Source: Cyclobacteriaceae bacterium
GTDB taxonomy: Bacteria; Bacteroidota; Bacteroidia; Cytophagales; Cyclobacteriaceae
Direction: 5' to 3'
DNA: 38,328 nt
Assembly (NCBI GenBank): GCA_025455465.1
Contig: JALOMI010000001.1
Location: 1-38,328 of the forward strand
In this document: piece by piece, positions 33,634 through 36,949 of the stretch
How the letters are laid out: each line of letters begins with the position of its first letter
Numbering within the stretch: position 1 is the stretch's first letter
The notes under the pieces: generated by a model
Database searches by the model: none
Seen by the model: only the letters and a program-made list of their open reading frames with translations
What the model was told of the DNA's origin: nothing
Made by a program: the position numbers and the translations under genes

Positions 33634-34704
33634 ATGGACAAGAAGAGCAAAAGTTTTCTGTACGAATACCTGAACAATGCATCCCCTACCGGCTTTGAAC
33701 ACAGCGGTCAGCAGATCTGGCTGGATTACATCAAGCCCTATATTGATGACTACATCGTGGATGTGTACGGCACTGCGGTGGGTGTAATCAACCCGAAAGG
33801 CGCTTACAAAGTAGTGATTGAAGCACATGCCGATGAGATCTCCTGGTTTGTGGGCTACATCACCGATGACGGTTATATCTACGTGAAGCGCAACGGTGGC
33901 TCCGATCACCAGATTGCCCCTTCCAAGCGGGTGAACATCCACACGGATAAAGGCATAGTAAAAGGTGTGTTCGGCTGGCCGGCCATTCATGTGCGTGATG
34001 CCGCGCGTGAAGAACCGCCTACACTGAAAAATATCTTTATCGATATTGGAGCGGAATCCAAGAAGGAAGTGGAAGCCATGGGCGTGCATGTGGGTTGTGT
34101 CATCACTTTTGAAGATGAGCTGATGGAGATGAATAAGCACTACCTCGTTGGCCGCGCACTCGACAACCGAATGGGTGGCTTTATGATTGCCGAGGTAGCC
34201 CGGAGGCTGAAGGAAAACAAGAAGAAACTCCCGTTCTGCCTCTATGTTGTCAACGCTGTTCAGGAAGAGATTGGCTTGCGTGGTGCTGAAATGATTTCGC
34301 GCAGGCTCAAACCCGACCTCGCAATCTGTACGGATGTTACTCACGACACCTGCTCACCGGTTTACAATAAGAAGGACACCGGGCATATCAAGTGCGGCAG
34401 CGGACCGGTATTGTGCTACGGTCCTGCCGTACAAAACAACGTTCTGAAAATGATCATCGAAACAGCCGGTAAGCGGAAAATTCCTTTCCAGCGCCAGGCC
34501 GTCAGCCGATCAACTGGTACAGATACGGATTCATTTGCATATTCCGCAGAAGGAGTGGCGTCTGCGCTGATTTCCTTACCCCTGAAGTATATGCACACCA
34601 CCGTGGAGACGGTTCATAAAGATGATGTTGAGAATGTTATTAAGTTGATTTATGAAGTGCTTTTGCAGGTGAAGCCCGGGTATGATTTCCGGTATATTAA
34701 GTAA
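33634..34704 (+). CDS. M42 family metallopeptidase
   Basis: ASPTGFEHSGQQIW, VIEAHADEISWFVGYITDDGYIYVKRNGG, GRALDNRMGGFM, VNAVQEEIGLRGAEM. Confidence 0.94.
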   Translation: MDKKSKSFLYEYLNNASPTGFEHSGQQIWLDYIKPYIDDYIVDVYGTAVGVINPKGAYKVVIEAHADEISWFVGYITDDGYIYVKRNGGSDHQIAPSKRVNIHTDKGIVKGVFGWPAIHVRDAAREEPPTLKNIFIDIGAESKKEVEAMGVHVGCVITFEDELMEMNKHYLVGRALDNRMGGFMIAEVARRLKENKKKLPFCLYVVNAVQEEIGLRGAEMISRRLKPDLAICTDVTHDTCSPVYNKKDTGHIKCGSGPVLCYGPAVQNNVLKMIIETAGKRKIPFQRQAVSRSTGTDTDSFAYSAEGVASALISLPLKYMHTTVETVHKDDVENVIKLIYEVLLQVKPGYDFRYIK

Positions 34705-34727
34705 TTGTTAACAAAAACCTTACATCC

Positions 34728-34854
34728 GAAAGAATCGACCCTCAATAGAAGAATTTACCAGGGTAAGGCAATCTACATTTGATTCACTAAACCTAAGGCA
34801 AGCGGCCTTAACGTAACACGTACTGAGCACGGAGTTTTATTGAGAGGGTCTTTC
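34728..34854 (+). ncRNA. Candidate structured RNA of unknown family (strand assigned from downstream terminator)
   Basis: Closing stem GACCCTCAATAGAA (34737-34750) with TTTTATT-ga-GAGGGTC (34835-34850), flanked by GAAA/TTTC; internal hairpin TAAGGC-aagcg-GCCTTA (34794-34810); intergenic, no ORF. Confidence 0.45.
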
Positions 34855-34882
34855 TTCGTGCACCCAGTGCGTTCCTTAAAAT

Positions 34883-34930
34883 GAGCATCTTCTGATTCTT
34901 ATGGGTTTCGGAAGATGCTCTTTTAATTTT
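34883..34930 (+). terminator. Strong intrinsic terminator immediately upstream of the BtuF-like ORF
   Basis: GAGCATCTTC (34883-34892) with GAAGATGCTC (34911-34920), then TTTTAATTTT. Confidence 0.8.
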
Positions 34931-34931
34931 G
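34924..34931 (+). promoter_or_regulatory. Possible Bacteroidota -7 element for the BtuF-like ORF, overlapping the terminator T-tract
   Basis: TAATTTTG matches TAnnTTTG, 4 nt (GGGC) before ATG 34936; no clear -33. Confidence 0.35.
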
Positions 34932-34935
34932 GGGC

Positions 34936-35715
34936 ATGCTGCCAATTACGACAACGGATCAGATGGGAAATAAGCTCCGGCTGCCCGGTTACCCCCAGCG
35001 CATTATTTCCCTGGTACCCTCCCAAACAGAACTCTTACACGACCTGGGCCTCGACAAAGAAGTAGTCGGTATCACCAAATTCTGTGTTCATCCACCGGAA
35101 TGGCGGAAAACCAAAGCCATTATTGGGGGTACCAAGAATGCAGATCTCAGCCGCATGGAATCATTAACACCCGATCTGATCATTGGCAACAAGGAAGAGA
35201 ATGACCGCGCCACCATTGAGGCACTTCAGCAGAAGTATCCGGTCTGGATGAGCGATGTGATCACCGTAGGCGAGGCCCTTACGATGATAAGGGGCATCGG
35301 ACAAATTACCGGCCGGGAAGCAGCCGCTCACCAAATCGCTGACCGGATTAATCAATCGATGGCAGGCATTGTCCCTGCCGGAAAAGAAGCGCTGTACCTG
35401 ATCTGGCATAAACCCTGGATGGGGGCAGCACACGGAACTTTCATCCATCACATGATGGAGAAGGCCGGATACCGTAATTGCCTTCGTCATCTGCACCGCT
35501 ATCCGGAGTTGGATGAATCAATACTAAAGACTCTGAATCCTGAGGTAATCCTGTTGTCATCAGAACCGTATCCGTTCAAAGACAAACACAAGGAAGAACT
35601 CCAGTCGTTGTTTCCTGAAGCTACCATCTTACTGGTAGATGGGGAACTGTTTTCCTGGTACGGAAGCCGGATGCTTCACTTTGCCCCTTACACGGATACG
35701 CTCAGGCAAACGTGA
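34936..35715 (+). CDS. BtuF-like helical backbone metal receptor / ABC substrate-binding-fold protein without signal peptide
   Basis: YPQRIISLVPSQTELLHDLGLDKEVVGITKFCVHPPEW, IIGGTKNADLSRMESLTPDLIIGNKEEND; N-terminus MLPITTTDQMGNKLRLPGYP has no signal peptide or lipobox. Confidence 0.88.
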   Translation: MLPITTTDQMGNKLRLPGYPQRIISLVPSQTELLHDLGLDKEVVGITKFCVHPPEWRKTKAIIGGTKNADLSRMESLTPDLIIGNKEENDRATIEALQQKYPVWMSDVITVGEALTMIRGIGQITGREAAAHQIADRINQSMAGIVPAGKEALYLIWHKPWMGAAHGTFIHHMMEKAGYRNCLRHLHRYPELDESILKTLNPEVILLSSEPYPFKDKHKEELQSLFPEATILLVDGELFSWYGSRMLHFAPYTDTLRQT

Positions 35716-36949
35716 GGTTGAAGCCCATGCCCTTCATGCCTTCCCAGAATTTCGGATATGATTTTCGAACCACCATCGGATCTTCAATTACTATGTCGCG
35801 CATCGTAGCAAGAGGCGCAAATGCCATCGCCATGCGGTGGTCGAGGTAGGTATGGATCGGGTCGATGAATTCCGGTACTGAAGGCGCAGGAATTAATGTC
35901 CACCGGTTGTCTTCTTCAAGCAATTGTGCCCCGAGTTTGGCGAGTTCCTGCTGTAAGGCTTTGATGCGGTCGGTCTCCTTGATGCGAAGACTTTGCAGTC
36001 CGGTGAATTCAGCCCGGATGTTTTTGGCAGCGCACACTACAGCTACTGTTTGCGCCAGATCAGGGCAATGCGTGAAATCCCAGCTAAACGAATCACGTGA
36101 GGGAATTTTCATCAATAATAAATTGGAACCTCGCGGCTGGGTCATCACCCCGAGTTGTTCCATCATGTCCATAATGACGCGGTCGCCCTGCAACGATCGA
36201 ACCGTCATTTCCGGCAGAACAATATCCGCTTCATCAGCCAGTGCTGTAAAGGCATACCAGTAGCTGGCTGCAGACCAGTCGGATTCTACGGTATAGGTTC
36301 TGGGTTTATAGGCACCCGCTTTTACGACAACGGATTGTTCCTCCACCGTCACATCAGCACCAAAGAGGCGCATCAGCGAGGCTGTCATTTCAATATACGG
36401 GCGGCTGCCGACATGTCCTTCCAGGTTGATGACCAGTCCTTGCGGCAGGCGGGGTGCGATCATCATCAGGGCCGAAATGTACTGACTGCTGACATCCCCG
36501 CGGATGGACAAGGTATTTGTCTCGCTTGCTTTGATGCCATGGATACGCAGTGGCGGATAGCCTTCTTCGTTCAGATATTCGATGGATGCTCCCAGTGCGC
36601 GCAACGCATCCACCAGCAGTTTGATGGGTCTTCGCTGCATGCGTTCCGTACCGGTGAGTGTTTTTTGTTTTCCGGTAACGGCAAGGTAAGCAGTAAGAAA
36701 GCGCATGGTGGTGCCGGCATCTTCAGCATCCAGGGTGTGTTCACCCGATTGAAGCAGACGTTGCATCAGCACCGTATCGTTGGCATCGGAAAGATTGTGT
36801 AGTTCGGCCGGTGACGGGCACAAGGCCTGTATGATAAGCACCCGGTTACTGATGCTTTTGGAAGCCGGCAACTTGTTCACGGTTCCTCTTAGCCGGCTGT
36901 TCTTCTGAAGATGAATGATCTGTTGCACGTGATGATGAATGGGTAGCAA
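35702..36949 (-). CDS. aroA: 3-phosphoshikimate 1-carboxyvinyltransferase (EPSP synthase)
   Basis: LPASKSISNRVLIIQAL, DAGTTMRFLTAYLA, GDVSSQYISALMMIAP, LRIKETDRIKALQQEL, DHRMAMAFAPLA; start uncertain (TTG in track). Confidence 0.95.
   Translation of the reverse strand: MLPIHHHVQQIIHLQKNSRLRGTVNKLPASKSISNRVLIIQALCPSPAELHNLSDANDTVLMQRLLQSGEHTLDAEDAGTTMRFLTAYLAVTGKQKTLTGTERMQRRPIKLLVDALRALGASIEYLNEEGYPPLRIHGIKASETNTLSIRGDVSSQYISALMMIAPRLPQGLVINLEGHVGSRPYIEMTASLMRLFGADVTVEEQSVVVKAGAYKPRTYTVESDWSAASYWYAFTALADEADIVLPEMTVRSLQGDRVIMDMMEQLGVMTQPRGSNLLLMKIPSRDSFSWDFTHCPDLAQTVAVVCAAKNIRAEFTGLQSLRIKETDRIKALQQELAKLGAQLLEEDNRWTLIPAPSVPEFIDPIHTYLDHRMAMAFAPLATMRDIVIEDPMVVRKSYPKFWEGMKGMGFNLTFA

Follow-up and report, generated by a model that had tools for sequence, protein, structure and literature searches.

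The region studied here lies in a window of 38,328 nucleotides (the whole stretch of DNA analysed, from contig JALOMI010000001.1 of a Cyclobacteriaceae bacterium). It is the gap between the gene of an M42 aminopeptidase and that of a TroA-like helical backbone metal receptor (BtuF-like), which is followed by a convergent aroA gene (Table 1). As the initial annotation had described, this gap, 231 nt long (34705–34935), contains no listed open reading frame and is densely paired when read as RNA (−68.3 kcal/mol, z −4.05, 0 of 200 shuffles).

Table 1. Features in and around the M42–TroA gap (positions refer to the window)
Feature	Position	Strand	Evidence or remarks
M42 aminopeptidase gene, upstream	33634–34704	+	PF05343, E 8.3e-78
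5′ arm of the initially proposed long-range stem, GACCCTCAATAGAA	34737–34750	+	Complementary to the loop; lies 5′ of the predicted start and is not conserved
Bacteroidota −7 promoter box, TACATTTG	34774–34781	+	Exact match to TAnnTTTG, 0.5% of shuffles; predicted start ~34787
Predicted small RNA, ~138 nt (mini-hairpin, conserved hairpin, terminator)	34787–34926 (about)	+	z −6.11; conservation in sister
5′ mini-hairpin UAAGGC-AAGCG-GCCUUA	34794–34810	+	Identical in sister (L009)
Family-defining conserved hairpin	34818–34872	+	Covariance model R1 match, E 6.2e-16; covariation
Lower stem of the conserved hairpin	34818–34825/34865–34872	+	
Upper stem of the conserved hairpin	34827–34834/34854–34861	+	
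Invariant apical loop, UUUUAUUGAGAGGGUCUUU, proposed antisense seed	34835–34853	+	UU..GAGAGGGUCUUU identical in 42/42 distinct copies
Intrinsic terminator	34883–34924	+	Stem 34883–34894/34909–34920, T-tract 34921–34924; folded within the predicted transcript
TroA-like helical backbone metal receptor (BtuF-like) gene, downstream	34936–35715	+	NF038402
aroA, convergent, conserved neighbourhood member	35702–36949	−	TIGR01356 above cut-off; adjoins the hairpin in most loci

The transcript predicted within the gap folds into three stem-loops, with a z score found in 0 of 200 shuffles. Compared with the locus of the sister genome G011 (L009), the sequence is conserved from ~34790 to ~34925 and the flanks have diverged. 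The box preceding the predicted start matches TAnnTTTG, the −7 promoter consensus of Bacteroidota (PMC9723704). In the sister, an equally distant box reads TACTTTTG; no −33 TTG was found within the range scanned. The small TAAGGC-AAGCG-GCCTTA hairpin and the terminator 3′ of the structure, both noticed in the initial annotation, are real and kept in the sister, where the terminator shows one compensatory change (C-G to U-A, at 34892/34911). Part of the apical loop, GGGUCUUU (34845–34853), is complementary to AAAGACCC, which we take to be a word from the conserved macrolide site of 23S rRNA; this match is presumably due to chance.

The architecture differs from that initially proposed, namely a 14-bp closing stem (GACCCTC...GAGGGTC) enclosing 84 nt in a 6S-like manner. 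The complementarity invoked is real, GACCCTCAATAGAA being able to pair with 34835–34850. The sister has ACATTCAGTTTAGAA in place of the 5′ arm, and the closing stem is absent from the full-length minimum-energy fold; it formed only if the 3′ half of the true hairpin was removed. We rejected it as the architecture of the RNA: its 5′ arm lies upstream of the predicted promoter and its 3′ arm coincides with the apical loop of the local hairpin (34818–34872). The 6S-like model, whose stem is missing in both the sister and the full-length fold, was therefore wrong. An unannotated structured RNA is nonetheless present, folded differently than proposed, so that the scan had hit a real RNA despite the wrong fold.

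A DNA search of 195 relatives revealed a short core shared by most genomes of the genus and present in a few further genera; this core is centred on 34827–34876 rather than on the proposed stem. When aligned, the loci share an invariant loop and fold as the two-part hairpin ACGYGCAG-GGK-CACGGAG-loop-CUUCGUG-UGCU-CUGUGCGU. R1, a covariance model of these loci, matched 44 of 246 genomes of the bacterial family at E ≤ 0.1, and full-length matches with E < 1e-12 occurred in 8 genera. Among 36 distinct full-length sequences, 97.7% of the cells were paired and 11 of the 18 pairs showed two-sided changes, in an alignment fitted to the model and hence biased towards it; their covariation score was reached in 0 of 500 shuffles, with slid controls far below. 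An unfitted alignment of the same hairpin gave 95.7% of paired cells and 6 pairs with two-sided changes. The G.U pairs of the stem fit an RNA read from the + strand. Pairs internal to the loop never vary, so covariation says nothing about them; the loop keeps the form UUUU(N1-6)GAGAGGGUCUUU, in summary UUUU(N)nGAGAGGGUCUUU. The compensatory changes among relatives whose absence would have spoken against the initial annotation are found in the local hairpin and the terminator; the closing stem is absent from the sister.

As far as the genomes searched indicate, the family is confined to one clade of Cyclobacteriaceae, comprising Chryseolinea, Chryseosolibacter, Chryseotalea, Ohtaekwangia, Dawidia, Parachryseolinea, Pseudochryseolinea and MAG genera. 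The loop pattern was not found in 13 other genomes of the bacterial family that we checked. Beyond this family, in 341 genomes of the order and 345 of the phylum, all R1 matches were CACAGAG-type palindromes in which the loop was missing at the match site (L187–L198); such palindromes, which also include L070 and L079, score weakly with the model. A scan of 84,980 species for the pattern AGTTTTN{0,6}GAGAGGGTCTTTYY returned 57 stretches, about three quarters of them in Cyclobacteriaceae. The remaining ones had no flanking stems by eye and their count, close to the estimated chance number (~13), is consistent with chance.

In the genus of the window there is usually one copy of the element per genome. 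Other genomes harbour dispersed copies besides that of the main locus (~3 in Chryseosolibacter histidini, ~6 in C. indicus, ~4 in the related isolate JP3-4), which combine the same loop with unrelated stems of 7–11 bp and separate terminators. Eleven short paralogues had 98.9% of their cells paired and 12 pairs with two-sided changes. Most dispersed copies are preceded by TAnnTTTG-like boxes located 2–15 nt from the stem, each of them weak alone. Since the same loop occurs on unrelated stems, the loop appears to be the fixed part of the element and the stem only a scaffold. The sequences thus define a putative multicopy sRNA family with the attributes of stand-alone genes of trans-acting base-pairing sRNAs: a clear terminator, moderate promoter boxes and dispersed copies. 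Covariation, stand-alone paralogues and the conserved promoter-like box back one of the two functions initially suggested, a standalone sRNA with its own terminator.

In most relatives, M42 is followed by two YfiR-like genes (PF13689), a histidine kinase gene, the hairpin, the TroA-like gene and convergent aroA, and the ancestral copy of the RNA is the one at this M42-[YfiR-YfiR-kinase]-RNA-[TroA]-aroA locus. Two tandem hairpins ~90–110 nt apart are found in the genera g74 and g16. Unlike most relatives, the window and the sister genome lack the YfiR-like and kinase genes between M42 and the hairpin. The kinase is also missing at the locus in G015 and G060, and the TroA gene in G060 (L023) and G040 (L025), with the hairpin still there; retention without the kinase was seen in the window, L009, L068 and L069. 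This survival of the hairpin after the loss of either gene indicates that the hairpin does not serve as a TroA leader and is more than a terminator of the kinase gene. Further upstream in the window, AACAAAAACCTTACATC (34715–34729) is 93% identical in the sister despite its diverging surroundings and is possibly a 3′ end signal of the M42 gene.

The exact complement of the loop, AAAGACCCTCTC, showed a particular distribution. We found 31 non-self sites in 31 element-bearing genomes, against 10 for a dinucleotide-matched control word, and 12 sites in 29 genomes of the bacterial family without the element, against 15 for the control word. The non-self sites in element-bearing genomes were either noncoding or no more than a few codons away from a start in 25 of 31 cases; this applied to 1/12 sites in the genomes without the element and to 2/10 and 1/15 sites of the control word (4/37 in total), all these counts being approximate, as the classes were set by a script and by our own reading of short antisense ORFs. 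A Fisher test on the site classes gave 4e-9 for hits and 9e-7 with orthologues counted once. Such a bias in element-bearing genomes, strong in genera other than that of the window, favours antisense base-pairing.

With moderate confidence, we consider positions 34787–34925 of the window to be the gene of a trans-acting sRNA, belonging to a family absent from Rfam and acting by its loop as a fixed antisense seed. The loop probably acts by pairing with complementary RNAs and, for the family, antisense pairing is the better-supported reading, which we regard as reasonably likely. The stem would only present the loop, and this seed would pair with complementary single-stranded RNA of two types: mRNA start codons, where ribosome entry would be blocked, and small complementary RNAs, which could be partners or sponges. 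The main rival, rather unlikely in our view, is an RNA-binding protein that recognises the invariant loop and is titrated by the copies, in the manner of CsrB/CsrA. A loop invariant over at least 12 bases plus flanking U-runs, beyond the strict need of a pairing seed, would suit such a protein, as would the multiple and tandem copies, but there is no candidate protein and the concentration of the antisense word at noncoding and start positions, only in element-bearing genomes, would be left unexplained.

The other explanations fare worse. In many genomes no more than ~15 nt separate the stop codon of the kinase gene from the hairpin, and a T-run follows directly; this would suit a terminator or 3′UTR element belonging to the YfiR-YfiR-kinase operon, its loop being decorative, and the kinase-linked copies may have originated from a 3′UTR. 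As a general explanation this is nevertheless improbable: the hairpin is kept where the kinase and YfiR genes are gone, a separate terminator follows the copy in the window as well as the dispersed paralogues, which lie far from any kinase, and termination requires no invariant 12-nt loop. A DNA-level palindromic repeat without RNA function, like the common CACAGAG palindromes of Bacteroidota, would account for the weak model matches in the order, the phylum and G197/G250, which are such palindromes. The stem at the main locus is similar and possibly arose from such a palindrome. However, a repeat of this type would be expected in many copies per genome and without a conserved loop, and the palindromes indeed lack the loop, whereas the element has an invariant loop, is normally single-copy at one syntenic place, keeps its stem paired via G.U, which only RNA tolerates, and has dispersed copies with unrelated stems and terminators; we thus judge this option very improbable. 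Hardly any credence can be given to the other function initially suggested, a metabolite-responsive leader (riboswitch) of the TroA/BtuF-like gene. That gene lies directly 3′ in many genomes, a position shared with cobalamin riboswitches and other metabolite leaders, but a terminator stands between it and the RNA, no Rfam riboswitch matched, and the hairpin is kept without the gene (L023, L025) and found far from it elsewhere in genomes.

The initial annotation recognised no known family, and our search with the window and nine related loci against Rfam 15 (6S-Flavo and cobalamin included) likewise gave no match at gathering thresholds; a relaxed search up to E 10 yielded chance-level matches only, 6S-Flavo and cobalamin not among them. 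The size range of 6S RNA and 6S-Flavo resembles only the first model of the RNA, whose true structure lacks their closing stem and open central bubble. In its mode of action, the family would come closest to multicopy loop-seed sRNAs, for instance LhrC, which has conserved single-stranded loop motifs that pair with the start regions of target mRNAs and a terminator hairpin. LhrC is a multicopy trans-acting sRNA family of Listeria (PMC4132741). The likeness, which includes several paralogous copies, is functional; the RNA described here belongs to another phylum and has one dominant hairpin with a G-rich loop, in contrast to the C-rich UCCC of LhrC. To our knowledge, no Shine-Dalgarno mechanism is expected in Bacteroidota, another difference from LhrC. 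Within the phylum, GibS of Bacteroides thetaiotaomicron (PMC7366714) and Rfp18 of Flavobacterium psychrophilum (PMC9723704) are intergenic sRNAs for which mRNA pairing has been proposed or shown. They share with our RNA the intergenic location and the TAnnTTTG promoter type, the invariant loop and dispersed copies being distinctive of the latter. We know of no sequence or structure in common with them, and of few regulatory RNAs in Bacteroidota outside Bacteroides and Flavobacterium; we found no paper on small RNAs of this Cyclobacteriaceae clade. We regard our RNA as a new family within a known kind (trans-acting base-pairing sRNAs), alongside GibS and Rfp18 as an sRNA of Bacteroidota. It is noteworthy for its strong covariation, its absence from Rfam and its fixed loop on freely changing stems.

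The candidate pairing sites are countable, which opens the mechanism to simple compensatory mutations. At start codons, AAAGACCCTCTCT-AUG lies in a 16-nt operon gap of two species (L230, L231), AAAGACCCTCTCCU-AUG (in DNA, AAAGACCCTCTCCT-ATG) occurs at L165, and AUGAAAAAGACCCTCTC (in DNA, ATGAAAAAGACCCTCTC) occupies start sites in three genera (L162, L245, L258). Frequent signal-peptide codons may account for part of the ATGAAAAAGACC sites. In a looser test, GACCCTC located up to 10 nt from any ATG was not enriched relative to its control. Several noncoding AAAGACCCTCTC sites are upstream of the promoter of the next gene and hence outside its leader. Two candidate conserved targets with sites near orthologues in two genera, a TPR gene and a lipocalin-like lipoprotein gene, were weakened on inspection; for the TPR gene, the sites are upstream of its promoter and most orthologues have no site. 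The genus of the window has a single non-self exact complement (G005, L258), its one-mismatch complements being mostly in coding sequence, and in the genome of the window itself a single weak candidate was seen, AAAGAACCTCTC, located 21 nt upstream of the ATG that starts a gene that by eye we take to be carboxylate-amine-ligase-like (L296).

Other sites are leads for candidate pairing partners. L251 and L252 (G267:C10:332600-334400 and G246:C33:125400-127200) contain 3–4 tandem GACCCTCTC units 5′ of the promoter of a gene for a large TPR protein. By eye, these units fold into small hairpins that place the word in their loops, and one G-U change favours that strand; this array could be a sponge RNA. 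At L241/L242 and L250/L253, AAAGACCCTCTC is intergenic and directly 5′ of a hairpin resembling an intrinsic terminator, possibly as part of short complementary RNAs. These tandem copies and pre-terminator sites lend themselves to a more speculative, and in our estimation unlikely, two-sided system, in which invariant G-rich-loop RNAs would face separate RNAs or arrays presenting AAAGACCCUCUC in loops or beside terminators, with loop-loop pairing tuning the regulon. Finally, a short contig of G060 (C173, L172) carries three zero- or one-mismatch complements, two of them shortly before an ATG, and this genome has 17 complement 12-mers with at most one mismatch, versus 7 for the reversed control.
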